Source: Actinomycetes bacterium (GTDB taxonomy: Bacteria; Actinomycetota; Acidimicrobiia; IMCC26256; PALSA-610). Taken from it: a stretch of DNA of 35,769 nucleotides. The notes beneath the pieces were generated by a model, which searched no databases, was not told where the DNA came from, and saw only the letters and a list, made by a program, of their open reading frames with translations. Location: NCBI GenBank assembly GCA_025463875.1, contig JAODBI010000185.1:1-35769 (forward strand), written 5' to 3'. Below, piece by piece: positions 24,158 to 35,716 of the stretch. Position 1 is the first letter of the stretch, and every line of letters begins with the position of its first letter. The position numbers and the translations under genes were made by a program.

Positions 24158-25141
24158 ATGACGCGCCTCGGCTATCAGATTCCCAACTTCACCTGCCCGG
24201 ATGTTGGGCCGGCCGAGCTGTTCGACATGGTGGCAAAGCAGGCCGCGGCCGCCGACCGCTCCGGTTTCGACACGGTGTTGCTGATGGATCACTTCTACCA
24301 ACTGCCGATGTTGGGCGATCCGTCCGCCTACATGCTCGAGTGCTACACGACATTGGGTGCGTTGGCGCGCGAGACCAAGAACGTACGGCTCGGCGCGCTG
24401 GTCACCGGCAACACCTACCGCAATCCGACGTTGCTGGCGAAGATCATCACCGCGCTCGACGTGGTGTCGGGTGGGCGCGCACAACTCGGCATCGGCGCGG
24501 GCTGGTTCGAGTTCGAGCACGACTCACTCGGCTTCGAATTCGGGACGTTCACCGATCGGTTCGAAAAACTCGAAGAGGCGCTGCAGATCGTCATCGGCAT
24601 GCTGCGCGACGAACGACCCAGTCTCGACGGCAAGCACTACCACGTGGAGAGCGCGATCAATCAACCGCCGCCGGTGGGTCGCGTTCCGATCATGATCGGG
24701 GGGGCGGGCGAGAAGAAGACGTTGCGGCTCGTGGCGCAGTACGCCGACGAGTCGAACCTCACGTCGCCGTCGAACGAGATTCCCCGCAAGCTCGACGCGC
24801 TCGCCGCGCACTGCCGGCGTCTTGGTCGGAATCGCGCCGAGATCAAGGTGAGCCAACACCTCAACGTCTGCATCGCGGACTCTCGCGACGAGGCGTACTC
24901 GGATATGACGCGCTTTCTGGCCGCGCGCGGCTTCGATGTCGACACGATGGACAAGCAGCTTCTCGACCAGATCCTGGCATTGGTGATCTGGGGCGGTCCG
25001 GACGAGGTCGGAGAACAGCTCGAAGCCGTGATGGCGAGCGGTATCGACGGCATCACCTGCTCGCTCCCCGGGAACGGATGGATACCGGAGCGAGTCGAGC
25101 TGCTCGGCGCGACTGCGGGCAAGGTGCTCGGAATCAACTGA
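24158..25141 (+). CDS. LLM-class F420-dependent oxidoreductase
   Basis: A 327-residue luciferase-like TIM-barrel oxidoreductase. Family blocks are LGYQIPNFTCPDVG at the start, AAADRSGFDTVLLMDHFYQLP, NVRLGALVTGNTYRNPTLLAK, LDVVSGGRAQLGIGAGWFEFEH and PIMIGGAGEKKTLRLVAQYAD. These enzymes transfer hydride to or from coenzyme F420, typically on alcohols, imines or aromatic compounds; the substrate is not evident. ATG 24158 is preferred because CAGGAG precedes it at 5 bp; an in-frame ATG at 24143 is possible. The C-terminus ends two codons inside an 8-bp direct repeat described separately. A second member of the family lies at 26017. Confidence 0.92.
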   Translation: MTRLGYQIPNFTCPDVGPAELFDMVAKQAAAADRSGFDTVLLMDHFYQLPMLGDPSAYMLECYTTLGALARETKNVRLGALVTGNTYRNPTLLAKIITALDVVSGGRAQLGIGAGWFEFEHDSLGFEFGTFTDRFEKLEEALQIVIGMLRDERPSLDGKHYHVESAINQPPPVGRVPIMIGGAGEKKTLRLVAQYADESNLTSPSNEIPRKLDALAAHCRRLGRNRAEIKVSQHLNVCIADSRDEAYSDMTRFLAARGFDVDTMDKQLLDQILALVIWGGPDEVGEQLEAVMASGIDGITCSLPGNGWIPERVELLGATAGKVLGIN

Positions 25142-29736: not shown

Positions 29737-30114
29737 TCAGCGAGCGGTCCAGTGCGGGTCGCGCCCGCTCAACGCGACGACCCGATCGAGGTACGAGAGG
29801 TTGTCGTCGTCGGTGACCGTGACCGGTTCCGCGTAGGCGTCGCCGCGCACTGCCGGGTCGGCACTCGCAATCTGCGCCACGAAGCCGTTGACGACGTCGA
29901 GCTCGGCATCGTCACACTCGTACGGCCGCCCAATCGCGCGCGCCACGTCCCAGCCGTGGATCACGAGCTTCCTGTGGTGTCCGCAGAGATATCGAGGGTG
30001 TGGACCGCCGACGGTCGCGAAACTCATCGGGGTCCCCCAGGTCATGCCCCAGGTAAGGCCTAGGTAAAGATCTCCCGCCCCGACCCGATAGCGCACCTTC
30101 TCGCGTCGCATCAT
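29737..30114 (-). pseudogene. Truncated TIGR03086/mycothiol-isomerase-like protein
   Basis: The frame encodes up to 125 residues. RKLVIHGWDVARAIGRPYECDDAELDVVNGFVAQ and the end YLDRVVALSGRDPHW match the C-terminal half of the actinobacterial TIGR03086 family (DinB-fold, mycothiol-dependent maleylpyruvate-isomerase-like proteins of about 190-200 residues). The N-terminal metal-binding helices that carry HT/HxxxH-type residues are absent. The first 30 residues, read from ATG 30114, look unrelated and overlap the upstream control region of the next gene. The GHHRKLVIHGW segment keeps one histidine set, so some metal binding may remain. It is most likely a remnant left when the neighbouring locus was inserted or rearranged, though a short functional form cannot be excluded. 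Confidence 0.5.
30051..30072 (+). promoter_or_regulatory. Direct-repeat operator 1, predicted response-regulator site
   Basis: AGGTAAGGCCT and AGGTAAAGATC are tandem 11-bp half-sites, the spacing used by OmpR/PhoB-family dimers. The site ends 48 bp before the start of the cytochrome-like gene. A third weaker half-site AGGTCATG lies just upstream at 30039. Nearly the same sequence recurs at 32911-32932 in the other orientation. Confidence 0.6.
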
Positions 30115-30119
30115 GAGGC

Positions 30120-30761
30120 GTGGACACTCGCTCCGGCCGGGACTCGATCCCCCCGGCGAACGTGACGGGCAACGCGCGCCTCACCGGTGCGTTGGGTGCG
30201 GTGATCTTCGTGCTCCTGTTCTTCGAAGGACTCACGATCCTGCGCGTGCAGAGCCTCATGTGGCTGCACGCGTTCCTCGGCATGCTGGTGGTGACGTTCG
30301 TGGTCGCAAAGATCGCGAGCACGAGCTACCGATTCGCTCGCTATTACCTCGGGCAACGCGACTATGTGGGCAAGGGTCCGCCGCCGGCATTCCTGCGGGT
30401 CCTCGGCCCGGTGGTGACGGTCACGACCATCGCTGTTCTCGCCACCGGAATCGGAGCACTCGTCGCGCGCCACAGCCATTGGCTCCAGCTCGCCCACAAG
30501 GCGAGCTTCGTCGTGTGGTTCGCCGCAATGACACTGCATGTGCTCGGTCACCTGCTCGAGACACCGGCACTTGCGTTGGCCGACTGGCGTCGCGCCCGTC
30601 GTCGCGAGGCACCGGGCGCACCGGCGCGCTTCTCGGTACTGATGCTCGCAGTCGTCACCGGGCTCGTGCTCGCCGTGCTGTCATTGCACTGGGCGCACCA
30701 GTGGCAACACGAGCGGGGCGCGCCCGCGAATCGTCGTCCCGCCACTGCCGTAGCCTCCTGA
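30120..30761 (+). CDS. Four-helix membrane protein, cytochrome b561-like
   Basis: A 213-residue integral membrane protein. Predicted helices are about 21-40 (GALGAVIFVLLFFEGLTIL), 46-66 (LMWLHAFLGMLVVTFVVAK), 92-116, 124-147 (LAHKASFVVWFAAMTLHVLG) and a last one at 172-190. Histidines inside or at the ends of helices are His50, His126, His140 and His144; His50 with His140 or His126 could ligate a heme as in cytochrome b561 and DUF4405-type proteins. Heme binding is inferred, not proven. The GTG 30120 start is used; GTG 30162 is an alternative. It begins downstream of the direct-repeat operator and is followed, 43 bp later, by the response regulator, so it probably heads that transcript. Confidence 0.82.
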   Translation: MDTRSGRDSIPPANVTGNARLTGALGAVIFVLLFFEGLTILRVQSLMWLHAFLGMLVVTFVVAKIASTSYRFARYYLGQRDYVGKGPPPAFLRVLGPVVTVTTIAVLATGIGALVARHSHWLQLAHKASFVVWFAAMTLHVLGHLLETPALALADWRRARRREAPGAPARFSVLMLAVVTGLVLAVLSLHWAHQWQHERGAPANRRPATAVAS

Positions 30762-30804
30762 GGAATCGCTCGACTACAGAGAGCGAGTTGGTCACCGCCA
30801 AGTC

Positions 30805-31506
30805 ATGCCTGCCGTTTCGGAACCTCCGGTCGCGATTCTTCTCATCGAAGACGACGACGCGATCGCCACGCCGCTCGCCGAGGGCCTGACCCGCGCCCAT
30901 TTCTCGGTGACGGTTGCGCGGAGCGGTACCGAGGGGCTCGCGGGTGCGGCCGATGCCGATCTCGTACTGCTCGATCTCGGGCTTCCCGACGTCGACGGTG
31001 CGGACGTCTGTCGTCTCCTGCTCGCCCGGTCCGACACGCCCATCATCGTCCTGACCGCGCGCGGCGACGAGCGCGACCGGGTTCGACTCCTCGAGATGGG
31101 CGCCGACGACTACGTCGTCAAGCCGTTCGGCTTCCGGGAGCTCGTCGCGCGCATCGGCGCCGTCCTCCGCCGATCGAACGCCGCGCTCGCGGGGGCAACC
31201 GATTCCGACCGCAAGGTCCAGGAATTCAACCGGCTTCGCATCGACCGTCGCTCTCGGCGCGTCGACGTGGACGGCCGGGAGATCGCACTCAGCCGCAAAG
31301 AATTCGATCTGCTCGCGCGGCTCGCCGAGACTCCGGGCGCGGTGGTGCGACGCGAGCGGATCCTCGAAGAAGTATGGGACGAACACTGGTGGGGATCTAC
31401 CAAGACCCTCGACGTGCACATCGCGGCGCTACGCAAGAAGCTCGGGGACGCGGCGTTCATCGCGACGATTCGAGGCGTCGGCTACCGGCTGGACGGTCAC
31501 CAATGA
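30805..31506 (+). CDS. OmpR/PhoB-family response regulator
   Basis: A 233-residue two-domain regulator. The receiver domain (residues 9-122) has the acidic cluster IEDDDA, the phosphoacceptor Asp57 in LVLLDLGLPD, Thr84 in IIVLTAR and Lys106 in VVKPFG. The winged-helix output domain occupies about 138-233, with ALSRKEFDLLARLAETPGAVV, TKTLDVHIAALRKKLGD as the recognition helix area, and GVGYRLD in the wing. It is cotranscribed with the kinase, whose ATG overlaps its stop (ATGA). Direct repeats of 11-bp spacing at 30051 and 32911 fit its expected binding mode, suggesting that it controls the cytochrome-like and ferric-reductase-like genes. Confidence 0.96.
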   Translation: MPAVSEPPVAILLIEDDDAIATPLAEGLTRAHFSVTVARSGTEGLAGAADADLVLLDLGLPDVDGADVCRLLLARSDTPIIVLTARGDERDRVRLLEMGADDYVVKPFGFRELVARIGAVLRRSNAALAGATDSDRKVQEFNRLRIDRRSRRVDVDGREIALSRKEFDLLARLAETPGAVVRRERILEEVWDEHWWGSTKTLDVHIAALRKKLGDAAFIATIRGVGYRLDGHQ

Positions 31507-32876
31507 CGCGGCGGCTGATCATCGCGTACGTGACACTGACGGCGCTCGCGCTCGCACTTCTGGCCACTCCGCTCGGCCTCACGTTCGCACACCGCGAACA
31601 TGATCGGCTCCTCTTCGACGCGGAGCGGGGCGCAAACACGATCGCGACCATGATCGACGACCCGCTCGAGGCACACAAGCCGATACCCGCCGAATCGATC
31701 AACGCGTCGGCGCGCGAGATGGGTGCGCACGTGGTCATCGTGAATCCGAAGGGCGTCGTCCTTCTCGATTCGGAGCAACCCGGAAGCCGGGGGCAATCGC
31801 TCGCTTCCATCAAGGACGTCCAGCTCGCGTTGCGGGGCGCGCGGGCATCCGGCCGGGGCGAGCTCCAGCCCAACGACGAGGTCGTCGCCTATGCGACCGT
31901 TCCGACAACCGGTGAAGGGGTAGTCAGCGGGGCCGTTCGCGTCACGTACCCGACCGCGACCCTCGACGAACGGGTGCGCGACGTCTGGATCCAGCTCGGT
32001 TTGCTGAGCCTCGGGGTGCTCGCCGCGGTCGTGCTTCTCGGTGCGGTGATCGCACGCAGTATCACGCGTCCGTTGCGGACGCTCGAGCACGCGACCGATC
32101 GCCTGGCCGAGGGAGACCTGACCGTGCGCGTCGACGAGACCGACGGACCTGAGGAGTTGCGCCGTGTGGCAGGGACCTTCAATCGGATGGCGGCGCAACT
32201 GAGTGACCTCATCGACTCCCAGACTCAGTTCGTCGCGAACGCGTCGCACCAGCTGCGTTCGCCACTCACCGCACTGCGACTGCGACTCGAGAATCTCGAC
32301 GCCGAGGCGAACGCGCGCGATCGCGAGTCCATTCGGGCGGCCGCGGCGGAGGTCACGCGCATGAGCCGGCTCGTCGACGGGCTGCTCCTGCTCGCGAACG
32401 ACGCCGCCCATCGAGACGATCTCGAGTTCGTCGACGTCGCCGCAGTCGCGCGCGATCGCGTGGCCGGCTGGAACGACGTCGCGCGCGAGAACAACGTCGA
32501 CATCGCCCTCGACGCACCGCCGACCGCGTTGGCCCGGACGCTCGCAAGCGCTCCCGAGCAACTGCTCGACAACCTCATCGACAACGCGCTCAGCGCCTCG
32601 CCCTCGGGCACGACCATCACCGTGGTCGTTCGCCACCAAGGTGCGACGGTCGAGGTCCGGGTACTCGACCGCGGGCCTGGCCTCGACGACGAATCGCGCC
32701 GGCGCGCGTTCGACCGCTTCTGGAGAGCCCCGGACGCGCAGCCGGGGGGCACGGGTCTCGGTCTCGCCATCGTTCGCCAACTCGCGGAGGCATCCGGAGG
32801 TACGTCGCGGTTGGCCGCGCGGGCCGGCGGCGGGCTCGCGGCCGAGGTCGCGCTTCCGGCCGCCGACGCCCGTTAG
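31503..32876 (+). CDS. Membrane sensor histidine kinase
   Basis: A 457-residue kinase. TM1 is about 5-28 and TM2 about 163-185, enclosing an extracellular sensor domain of roughly 130 residues that contains REMGAHVVIVNPKGVVLLDSE (a PAS-like or PDC-like strand pattern). A HAMP linker follows at about 186-238 (SITRPLRTLEHATDRLAEGDL). The dimerisation box is FVANASHQLRSPLTALRLRLE with His249; the ATP domain shows the N-box DNLIDNAL, G1 DRGPGLD and G2 GTGLGLAI. It forms a pair with the overlapping response regulator. The signal is unknown; the genes it flanks suggest a redox, metal or oxygen cue sensed outside the membrane. Confidence 0.96.
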   Translation: MTRRLIIAYVTLTALALALLATPLGLTFAHREHDRLLFDAERGANTIATMIDDPLEAHKPIPAESINASAREMGAHVVIVNPKGVVLLDSEQPGSRGQSLASIKDVQLALRGARASGRGELQPNDEVVAYATVPTTGEGVVSGAVRVTYPTATLDERVRDVWIQLGLLSLGVLAAVVLLGAVIARSITRPLRTLEHATDRLAEGDLTVRVDETDGPEELRRVAGTFNRMAAQLSDLIDSQTQFVANASHQLRSPLTALRLRLENLDAEANARDRESIRAAAAEVTRMSRLVDGLLLLANDAAHRDDLEFVDVAAVARDRVAGWNDVARENNVDIALDAPPTALARTLASAPEQLLDNLIDNALSASPSGTTITVVVRHQGATVEVRVLDRGPGLDDESRRRAFDRFWRAPDAQPGGTGLGLAIVRQLAEASGGTSRLAARAGGGLAAEVALPAADAR

Positions 32877-32910
32877 CCGGCGCCGATCCCGGCCAAACCG
32901 GGCCTCGGGG

Positions 32911-32932
32911 CGGCTTTCCCTATTCCTTACCT
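32911..32932 (-). promoter_or_regulatory. Direct-repeat operator 2, predicted response-regulator site
   Basis: Read on the minus strand, AGGTAAGGAAT is followed by AGGGAAAGCCG, an 11-bp-spaced tandem repeat. The first 19 bases agree with operator 1 at 16 positions. It lies about 76 bp before the ferric-reductase-like start and 40 bp before the leader ORF, inside a 131-bp intergenic region just after the kinase gene. Confidence 0.6.
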
Positions 32933-32972: not shown

Positions 32973-33011
32973 ATGGTCCGGTCGCAGCCTTCCGGACGCC
33001 AACCGCCATGA
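32973..33011 (+). CDS. 12-residue leader ORF before the ferric-reductase-like gene
   Basis: ATG 32973 is preceded by a strong ribosome site, GGGGAG, at 7 bp. It encodes MVRSQPSGRQPP and stops at TGA 33009-33011, which overlaps the main start codon as ATGA. The main gene has only a weak ribosome site of its own, so its translation probably depends on ribosomes arriving from this leader. Whether the peptide itself senses anything is unknown. Confidence 0.6.
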   Translation: MVRSQPSGRQPP

Positions 33012-34399
33012 CGACTGCCACGCTCTCGAAGCCTCCCGCCACCACCCCGTCCTCAGCTCGTCCCGTGCGCCGGCCCAACCCGGCCGACCACGCCCGCATC
33101 GTCGGGTTCGCGATCGCGATCGGCGCGCTCGTGACAGTCGGGCTCTGGTTCCGACACGGTGGTATCTCCGCCGCCTCCGGACCAGGGGCGTTCGCAACCG
33201 CCGTCGGTCAGCTGACCGCCCTCGTCGGCACCTACGCGATCCTCGTCCAGATCCTCTTCATGTCGCGCATCGCATGGCTCGAACGCGCGATCGGTCTCGA
33301 CCATCTCGCCGTGTGGCACCGGTGGCTCGGATTCGCGACGGTGTGGCTCATCACCGGTCACGTCGTGTTCACGACGATCGGGTACGCACAGGCCGACAAG
33401 GTCTCACTGTGGGCGCAGACGCGCGACTTCGTCTCGCACTATCCCGACGTCCTCATGGCCTGGGCCGGGTTCTTGCTCTTCCTCGGCGTCGCGGTCACGT
33501 CGGTGCGGGCCGCGCGGCGCAAGCTGCAACGGGAGACGTGGTACTTCATCCATCTCTACGCCTATCTCGCGATCGCGCTGTCGTTCGCGCATCAGCTCGC
33601 AGTAGGAAACGACCTCAGCAGCGACCGCGCCGCACGCGTCTGGTGGATCGCGCTCTACCTGATCGTCGCCGGCTCGATCCTCTGGTGGCGAGTCATCGTG
33701 CCGGCCCGCCTCAACGCGCGACACCGCCTACGGATACGGGCGGTGAAACGCGAGGCGCCGGGCGTCGTTTCGATCTACCTGTCCGGGCGCGGGCTCGACC
33801 GCATCGGCGCCGAACCGGGCCAGTTCTTCCTGTGGCGCTTCTTCACTCCCCGCATGTGGTGGAAGACGCATCCTCTCTCGCTCTCGGCCGCACCGACGCG
33901 AAAGGGTCTGCGCATCACCGTCAAAGACCTCGGCGACGGCTCGAAGGAGATGCAGCGTCTCCGGCCCGGAACCCGCGTCATCGGTGAAGGTCCCTACGGC
34001 ACCTTCACGGACGCGCGCCGGACTCACCGGGGCGTGCTGCTCATCGCGGGCGGTATCGGGATCACGCCGCTGCGCGCCATGCTCGACGGCTTCGGTCCGT
34101 CCGACGACGTCGTGCTGTTGTATCGCGTCGCGACCGCCGAGGACGCCGTGTTCGTCGACGAGCTCCGCGCCTTCGTACACCAGCCGAACATCAGGATCCA
34201 CGTGATCGCCGGCAACGAGATCGGCGACGATCGAACCGATCTGCTCTCGGTGCCCGCGTTGCAGCGCGGAGTTCCCGACATACGCGAGCGCGACTGTTTC
34301 GTCTGTGGCCCTCCCGCGATGATCAGCGCGTTGAGCCGGCGCCTGAAGATGCTCGGCGTGCCTCCCGCCCACATCCACTACGAACGCTTCGAGCTCTAG
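33008..34399 (+). CDS. Ferric-reductase-like transmembrane protein with FAD/NAD(P)H domain
   Basis: A 463-residue membrane flavocytochrome of the NOX/FRE type. After an N-terminal extension, about six helices span 32-230. Two histidine pairs suit two stacked hemes: His104/His118 (WHRWLGFATVWLITGH) and His182/His195 (IHLYAYLAIALSFAH). The cytoplasmic part has the FAD motif HPLSLSAAP near 288, the NAD(P)H loop GGIGITPLRAML at 348-359, and CGPP at 433-436. It should pass electrons from NAD(P)H through FAD and hemes to the outer face. Its neighbours, an exported FMN-binding-domain protein and ApbE, suggest the acceptor is a flavin-linked protein rather than free iron. Translation is probably coupled to the leader ORF at 32973. 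Confidence 0.93.
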   Translation: MTTATLSKPPATTPSSARPVRRPNPADHARIVGFAIAIGALVTVGLWFRHGGISAASGPGAFATAVGQLTALVGTYAILVQILFMSRIAWLERAIGLDHLAVWHRWLGFATVWLITGHVVFTTIGYAQADKVSLWAQTRDFVSHYPDVLMAWAGFLLFLGVAVTSVRAARRKLQRETWYFIHLYAYLAIALSFAHQLAVGNDLSSDRAARVWWIALYLIVAGSILWWRVIVPARLNARHRLRIRAVKREAPGVVSIYLSGRGLDRIGAEPGQFFLWRFFTPRMWWKTHPLSLSAAPTRKGLRITVKDLGDGSKEMQRLRPGTRVIGEGPYGTFTDARRTHRGVLLIAGGIGITPLRAMLDGFGPSDDVVLLYRVATAEDAVFVDELRAFVHQPNIRIHVIAGNEIGDDRTDLLSVPALQRGVPDIRERDCFVCGPPAMISALSRRLKMLGVPPAHIHYERFEL

Positions 34400-34412: not shown

Positions 34413-34916
34413 ATGAACCGAGCCATTCCCGGCGTCATCATCACCACCATCGGTCTCGGCGCGCTGGCGTCGTTCCGATCGTCGTCCGGCCTGCCCGTGA
34501 AGTCGTCGACCGCCGTCGTCGTTCCCCGGAAAACCGTTCCCGCGAGTACTGCACCGCCCTCCCGCGGGACCGCGGCCACGACGCCGACGACGACTCCCGC
34601 GTCGACGACTCCTGGCACGACGCCTGCCACCTCGACCCAGACTCGGACGATCACCGGAACCGCCGTCGACAATCAATACGGAACGGTGCAGGTGCAGGTC
34701 ACGCTGCACGGCACGCAGATCACCGACATCGTGGCGGTGCAGATGCCCAACAGTCACCAGCGTTCGATCGAGATCAGCCAGGGGGCCGAGCCGATTCTTC
34801 GTCAGGAAGCGCTGCAGTCCCAGTCCGCCCAGATCGACATCGTCTCCGGCGCCTCGTTCACCAGCCAGAGCTACGCGGAGTCGCTGCAGGGCGCGCTCGA
34901 CCAGGCCAATCGGTAG
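34413..34916 (+). CDS. Exported FMN-binding-domain protein
   Basis: A 167-residue protein. Residues 4-21 (AIPGVIITTIGLGALASF) form a signal anchor, then a Thr/Pro/Ser-rich linker (41-78) and a short FMN-binding domain. The domain shows TVQVQVTLHGTQITDIVAVQMPNSHQRS split across 91-118, and the flavinylation motif DIVSGASFTSQSY at 142-154. In NqrC/RnfG relatives the motif is D-x-x-SGAT, where Thr carries FMN attached through phosphate by ApbE. Here the residue after SGA is Ser148, so a serine-linked flavin or altered attachment is implied. It lies between the ferric-reductase-like gene and the ApbE gene, overlapping ApbE by TAGTG, and probably receives electrons on the outer face. Confidence 0.9.
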   Translation: MNRAIPGVIITTIGLGALASFRSSSGLPVKSSTAVVVPRKTVPASTAPPSRGTAATTPTTTPASTTPGTTPATSTQTRTITGTAVDNQYGTVQVQVTLHGTQITDIVAVQMPNSHQRSIEISQGAEPILRQEALQSQSAQIDIVSGASFTSQSYAESLQGALDQANR

Positions 34917-35716
34917 TGGTGACACGCGTCGGGCCCGGTGTCCGGAGAGCCGAAGAGCAATGGGGCACGGTCATCACGCTCGATGTCCGCGACGACATCG
35001 ACGAGGAAGTCATTGACGGGTGCTTCGACTGGTTTCGCCGCGTCGACGACCTCTTCAGCACCTGGCGCCCCGACACCGAGATCATGCGTATCGGCCGAGG
35101 AACGCTCCTCCCCGAGGACGCGAGTCCCGAGGTGCGAGAGGTTCTCGACCTCTGCGAGCAGATGCGACTCGAGTCGTACGGCGCGTTCGACATCAGCGTG
35201 GGCGCGAACCCCGACCTGCCCGCACGGCCGGGACGAGCGCCCCTCGATCCGTCCGGACTCGTCAAAGGCTGGGCCGTTGCAAAGGCCGGCGAGATGCTGC
35301 GGAACGCGGGCGCGTCGTCGTTCTTCGTCACCGCGGGCGGCTACCTCGTCGCGCGCGGCCGGCCGCAGCACGACGAGGCCGGGGGCTGGCGTGTCGGCGT
35401 GCAACACCCCTGGGAACGCGATCGCGTCGCAGCCGTCCTGTCGATCTCGGACCGGGCCGTTGCCACTTCCGGTAGGTACGAGCGGGGTGAGCACATCATC
35501 GATCCCCGCTCGGGGCGGCCCGCCGAAGGTCTCGCGTCGGTGACCGTCGTCGGCCGCGATCTCGCGGTCGCCGATGCTTACGCGACCGCCACGATGGTGC
35601 TCGGGCCCGTCGACGGGATGCCGTGGCTCGCGAGTCGGGTCGGCTACGAGGGCATGGCGATCGGTGACGACCGCGTCGTCACCACGACCGCCGGCTTCGA
35701 CCGCTACCGCATCTGA
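34916..35716 (+). CDS. apbE: ApbE-family FAD:protein FMN transferase
   Basis: A 266-residue flavin transferase. WGTVITLDVRDD near residue 16, FSTWRPDTEIMRI (47-59), GAFDISVGANPDLPARPG (89-106), DPSGLVKGWAVAKAGEML (111-128), HIIDPRSGRPAEG (193-205) and DAYATATMVLG (220-230) match the ApbE family in order; Asp220 in DAYAT is a usual Mg ligand. The box that usually reads NxGGD is TAGGY here (139-143). Unlike many proteobacterial ApbE proteins it shows no signal peptide or lipobox, so it is likely cytoplasmic or exported otherwise. GTG 34916 overlaps the FMN-binding gene stop. It should flavinylate that neighbour. Confidence 0.93.
   Translation: MVTRVGPGVRRAEEQWGTVITLDVRDDIDEEVIDGCFDWFRRVDDLFSTWRPDTEIMRIGRGTLLPEDASPEVREVLDLCEQMRLESYGAFDISVGANPDLPARPGRAPLDPSGLVKGWAVAKAGEMLRNAGASSFFVTAGGYLVARGRPQHDEAGGWRVGVQHPWERDRVAAVLSISDRAVATSGRYERGEHIIDPRSGRPAEGLASVTVVGRDLAVADAYATATMVLGPVDGMPWLASRVGYEGMAIGDDRVVTTTAGFDRYRI

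Follow-up and report, generated by a model that had tools for sequence, protein, structure and literature searches.

In a 35,769-nucleotide stretch of DNA from an Actinomycetes bacterium of the class Acidimicrobiia (assembly GCA_025463875.1, contig JAODBI010000185.1), which as a whole is called the window in the following, two similar direct repeats flank the genes of a two-component system, and the question arises which regulator recognizes these repeats and which genes are controlled from them. A preliminary description of this DNA had proposed that the response regulator (RR) encoded at 30805 controls both flanking gene sets, namely a cytochrome-like gene (cyt) and the genes for a ferric reductase (FRE), a flavin mononucleotide (FMN)-binding protein, and ApbE. 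Comparison with related genomes strongly supports this proposal, with three amendments that concern autoregulation, the cytochrome label, and the explanation of the strands. With a probability of roughly 0.87, the two repeats are operators of the OmpR/PhoB-type RR that is encoded between them, and RR would use them to control cyt-RR-HK, in which HK is a sensor histidine kinase, as well as FRE-FMN-ApbE. As the left operator stands in front of cyt-RR-HK, it is also upstream of RR's own gene, and it is probably autoregulatory as well, a point that the preliminary description had missed. The features of the locus are:

30051-30069, + strand: left candidate operator, AGGTAAGG-CCT-AGGTAAAG, two half-sites with an 11-base-pair (bp) period, about 50 bp upstream of the cyt start
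32914-32932, - strand: right candidate operator, AGGTAAGG-AAT-AGGGAAAG, two half-sites, 75 bp upstream of FRE and on the strand opposite to FRE
30120..30761, + strand: cyt, 213-residue multi-helix membrane protein, cytochrome-like by invariant histidines only
30805..31506, + strand: RR, OmpR/PhoB-type response regulator, PF00072 and PF00486 above cut-off
31503..32876, + strand: HK, sensor histidine kinase with HAMP, HisKA and HATPase_c domains, its ATG overlapping the RR stop
33008..34399, + strand: FRE, MsrQ-like/ferric-reductase-like membrane protein with NAD-binding domain, PF01794 (Ferric_reduct) and PF00175 (NAD_binding_1)
34413..34916, + strand: FMN, FMN-binding-domain protein, PF04205 (FMN_bind), flavinylation motif DIVSGAS at residue 142
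34916..35716, + strand: ApbE, flavin transferase, PF02424

All six genes thus follow each other on the + strand in the order cyt, RR, HK, FRE, FMN, ApbE. The short internal gaps suggest that cyt-RR-HK and FRE-FMN-ApbE are two operons, and each of these predicted operons is preceded by one operator.

Rarity of the two sites and an independently derived motif

Both 19-mers are present exactly as they had been written, 16 of their 19 positions are identical, and the 11-bp period of the half-sites is found in either of them. When the 19-mer pattern was searched with up to 3 mismatches, only the two operators matched in the window, no match occurred in 100 dinucleotide shuffles, and again only the two operators were found in the whole genome, a 4.6-Mb draft of 88% completeness, in which the reversed pattern as control gave 3 hits. 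As the pattern was built from both sites, this search is circular and gives rarity, not function, and genome-wide specificity rests on such pattern searches. A third strong copy is indeed absent from the window, and a weaker version (14/19) lies elsewhere in the genome, upstream of a second reductase copy.

An independent motif was derived from RR orthologues, which were sought in 58 genomes of the order (E <= 1e-50) and found in 43 of them, the orthologues, at about 54-70% identity or more, being clearly set apart from the paralogues near 50%. The training set consisted of the 250 bp upstream of 30 RRs from 32 fetched in-order loci, with the window and its sister left out, and an expectation-maximization motif search detected GGCCAAGAATCGGyAAAGATTC in 24 of these 30 regions, at a distance of 24-90 bp from the RR start. 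The log-likelihood of this motif was 245, compared to 80-94 in ten shuffles, and in a leave-one-out analysis 22 of the 24 sites outscored every other position in their locus (3-19 kb in length). When the two strands of the window were scored (about 71,500 positions), the right operator ranked first (14.9) and the left operator third (10.1), in the same register as in the preliminary description; as random sequence of window length has a mean best score of about 10.7, ranks and positions weigh more than scores.

With the motif frozen, the out-of-sample set comprised 55 RR orthologues that belong to the class but not to the order, orthologues being present in 86 of 395 genomes of the class (E <= 1e-60). 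The locus-best motif position was at most 200 bp upstream of RR and on the coding strand in 43 of the 55 cases, mostly at -35 to -56, where about 1-2 would be expected by chance, an estimate from 200 bp over both strands per locus and not a computed permutation. Several of the out-of-order sites come close to the window form, e.g. AAGGTAAGGATCAGGTAAAGGTTC and CAGGTAAGGATTCGGCAAAGGTTC. A refit on 72 sites gave the half-site GGyAArGatTC twice at 11 bp, and the site upstream of RR is the most conserved feature of the RR family. In the window, this refitted class-wide motif scores highest at the left operator (19.4), followed by position 24958 (16.8) and, at rank 3, the right operator (16.6), with the next position at 8.9. 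The site at 24958-24981 (- strand), which has a similar sequence at L033:1452, looks like a chance match, as it is far from the system, and the scoring of its counterpart in the sister locus L033 may reflect coding constraint.

Place and polarity of the sites in relatives

In the sister genome G053, whose RR is 93% identical to that of the window, the left site is kept with one change (AGGTAATGCCTAGGTAAAG) and AGGTAAGGACTAGGAAAAG is found 72 bp upstream of the reductase gene, both sites keeping the place and polarity that they have in the window. A search for GGTAAKGNNNAGGNAAA with at most 1 mismatch detected two sites in the window genome and two in G053 (about 8.1 Mb together), all in orthologous places, and the reversed control gave one hit in each. 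In the congener G051, the cyt orthologue and RR are on different contigs, and cyt is still preceded by GGGTAATGCGCAGGTAAAA, the best motif position of 18 kb. A version of the operator also precedes the reductase gene of G052, where it is the best position of 7 kb. At these alignment columns, weaker versions stand before the reductase gene of G051 (13/19) and before the second reductase copy of the window genome (14/19). The sequence-based conditions under which the preliminary description would have given up its proposal did not apply: the repeats are retained where the regulator is, and not many copies of equal quality were found at unrelated genes.

Why do the two operators lie on opposite strands? 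In G005 and G006, RR-HK is divergent from FRE-FMN-ApbE, with a single operator in between that points to RR and is on the opposite strand as seen from FRE. The polarities in the window match this arrangement, as the left operator is on the same strand as cyt-RR and the right operator on the strand opposite to FRE. The opposite strands may thus be understood because relatives keep one operator between divergent RR and reductase genes, and we infer an ancestral shared divergent operator, of which a later rearrangement would have left one copy per unit.

Could the two repeats nevertheless be similar by chance, or represent a small duplicated segment? The pattern was spotted by eye and after the fact, which is a point for such an origin. 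However, the 40-bp flanks on either side of the two operators are identical at only 18 of 80 positions, and because these flanks are unrelated, the operators are not a copied segment. Moreover, the sites come up again with the independent motif, in the sister species and in the out-of-sample test, and chance or segmental duplication was rejected on these grounds as far as sequence allows; its probability is next to negligible.

Several observations do weigh against RR acting at both operators. The second half of the right operator (GGGAAAG) is off consensus, the operator at the G052 reductase gene is degenerate, and no RR orthologue was found in the 86% complete draft of G052. Neither the reductase site of G051 nor that of the second copy in the window genome is the best hit of its locus, and the own RR of G051 has a weak site. 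Convincing sites are lacking at 6 of the 30 in-order RR orthologues, including G049 and the second copy in G045, and the class-wide motif alone is not genome-specific, because 24958 scores as high as the operators.

Part of these points would fit with two sites that work separately, the left one as a working autoregulatory operator and the right one as a decayed relic of the ancestral divergent operator. Such a decay would account for the deviating second half of the right operator and for the weak sites at the reductase genes of G051 and of the second own copy, but the right operator keeps GGTAAGGnnTAGGnAAAG, its place and its polarity in G053 while the neighbouring sequence differs, and the independent motif scores no other position of the window higher, which makes a mere relic very improbable.

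Another alternative would be that the sites belong to a different OmpR-type or global regulator that is encoded elsewhere, with RR-HK being merely one of its targets. Further OmpR-family regulators use 11-bp repeats too (PHO boxes, PMC7866108), G052 keeps its degenerate reductase site without a detected RR orthologue, and the position of a site in front of the RR gene is in itself no proof of binding by RR. Against this, the motif accompanies the RR clade in many families and orders, with positions of -24 to -90 relative to the start of RR, the sister genomes have just two sites each, at RR and at the cassette, which is unlike a global regulon, and cassettes that are tied to other RR clades have other repeats. 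We therefore regard a different regulator as unlikely. The motif-bearing RRs form a supported clade apart from RRs that adjoin FRE cassettes in other taxa, and they have a near-invariant recognition-helix region, HW(W/Y)G(P/S)TKTLDVH(I/V)ASLRKKLG, which differs in RRs with other repeats.

If RR is the regulator of both operators, a phosphorylated RR dimer would bind head-to-tail to the two half-sites (GGyAArGatTC), which are 11 bp and thus about one helix turn apart. At the left operator, RR would control its own cyt-RR-HK operon, and at the right operator the FRE-FMN-ApbE operon, whose products would move electrons from cytosolic NAD(P)H via membrane haems to an exported protein with covalent FMN; the cassette is predicted to carry electrons out of the cytosol to an extracytosolic flavin. 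The sequence comparisons show the sites themselves, how they are conserved and placed in front of RR orthologues throughout the class, and the families of the genes. Physical binding of RR at the operators and its dependence on phosphorylation are predictions, and activation would be likelier than repression. As a guess, HK may sense a redox or metal signal of the envelope.

Gene products of the locus

The label “cytochrome-like gene” is tentative. Four invariant histidines of cyt are in agreement with it, but cyt has no Pfam or NCBIfam family match, and a fold search gave nothing decisive: the best PDB match was the NOX5 membrane domain (E 0.065, template modelling score 0.36), obtained with a model of low confidence (predicted local distance difference test score, pLDDT, 66). 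A cytochrome assignment by fold was not confirmed, as the confidence of this model was too low and no match was significant. The start of cyt is uncertain, a same-frame ATG being absent at 30113. Homologues of cyt in L104 (G027) and L105 (G028) contain one in-frame TGA each in the matched stretch and may be broken or mis-bounded, and upstream of the one of G028, the opposite strand carries a strong motif (17.8).

RR was also considered as a named equivalog and rejected, the scores being below the NCBIfam curated cut-offs even for the equivalogs with the best hits, CseB (186/350 bits), CreB (184/273), PhoB (183/296) and MtrA (176/300). ApbE genes are within about 5 kb of RR in 14 of the 32 in-order loci, in at least one case together with a Ferric_reduct membrane protein, which links the regulator to flavinylation genes outside the genus as well.

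In FRE, H104, H118, H182 and H195 do not vary among 8 homologues, which is what two haems would require, haem binding being only predicted. With its PF01794 domain, together with PF00175, beside apbE and an FMN-binding gene, FRE has what defines a gene of MsrQ-like flavinylation clusters, and the site in the FMN protein conforms to the flavinylation motif D-x-x-[S/T]-G-A-[S/T] (PMC12052999). The ApbE of the window has no obvious N-terminal signal peptide by eye, though the protein that it presumably modifies seems to be exported; the flavin could be attached prior to export, and cytosolic ApbEs are known (PMC12052999). The second FRE-FMN copy of the genome (G000:C392:3851-5242, L095) is 69% identical and has a degenerate operator at the same place, and another motif hit with a score of 14.7 is found in this locus at L095:1345 (- strand).

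In many loci, a small protein (MxRRxxLAxAGAISLT...AANxGIL...VGxLSPV), which is exported and ends in a low-complexity tail, is encoded divergently from RR and shares the operator region (L037, L041, L047, L049, L050, L051, L056, L060); it had no Pfam match where tested. A remnant of a TIGR03086/maleylpyruvate-isomerase-type gene is present at 29737-30114 (- strand) of the window, with the C-terminal half alone matching. The left operator sits in the non-homologous N-terminal part of this remnant, of which there is only a short trace in the sister locus L033.

Other Actinomycetota cassettes and known systems

Do cassettes of this kind have comparable operators elsewhere? A set of 80 related FRE loci was taken from named genomes, most of them of Streptomyces and Amycolatopsis. 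An OmpR-type system is encoded divergently in 61 of these loci, and its RR shares only about 36% identity with that of the window. An 11-bp tandem repeat, GACAG-N6-GACAG, is present in the shared promoter region of 59 of these 61 loci and occurs 6 times in 1.06 Mb of surrounding DNA. A further pattern, TCTCAG-N5-TCTCAG (with variants), was found 6 times in 1.79 Mb, 5 times directly upstream of FRE genes without a local RR. This pattern search was chosen after inspection. The sites are:

L111-L190, upstream of FRE (e.g. L142, L160, L176): GACAG-N6-GACAG, between FRE and a divergent non-orthologous two-component system
L097:9297, L098:9838, L109:7598, L110:4133, L169:6009: TCTCAG-N5-TCTCAG type, 11-bp tandem, directly upstream of FRE genes

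It may be, with even odds, that the FRE-FMN-ApbE cassette was captured repeatedly across Actinomycetota by unrelated OmpR-type systems, and that every such system came with an 11-bp tandem operator of its own (GGyAArGatTC for this class, GACAG-N6-GACAG for the Streptomyces type, TCTCAG-N5-TCTCAG for others). The Streptomyces/Amycolatopsis cassettes resemble the locus described here in that FRE-FMN-ApbE is beside an OmpR-type system with a tandem repeat of 11-bp period in the shared promoter region, whereas their RRs belong to another clade and have another recognition-helix region and another repeat.

With the PHO boxes of Streptomyces PhoP (PMC7866108), the operators share the two head-to-tail half-sites of 11-bp period upstream of targets, and the regulators share the Response_reg and Trans_reg_C domains; in contrast, the half-site here is GGyAArGatTC, and the regulon would comprise the system itself together with flavin electron transfer. 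Meheust et al. 2021 (PMC8238504) deal with MsrQ-like flavinylation gene clusters of Actinobacteria, which likewise combine a PF01794 membrane protein with C-terminal PF00175, an FMN-binding protein and an adjacent ApbE. The difference is that the cassette here is tied to a specific two-component system and operator; term searches of that paper found nothing about a response regulator or an operator of such clusters. A literature search in open-licence papers found no described regulator of FRE-FMN-ApbE-type cassettes, and no paper on this RR or site in Acidimicrobiia/Acidimicrobiales.

The system appears to be an OmpR-type operator of known kind, with class-wide reach. Its significance lies in a specific RR-operator pair that would hold across the class, and in the concrete regulon that can be named, i.e. 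the system itself and a flavinylated transmembrane electron-transfer operon, so that tests of how these widespread cassettes are controlled become possible. In other genomes, the motif can serve to predict RR targets. Moreover, the comparison with the Streptomyces type suggests that unrelated two-component systems control the same cassette via different operators of the same geometry, and if repeated capture is true, flavin electron export would be a standard output of envelope signalling, with regulator and operator being swapped as a pair.

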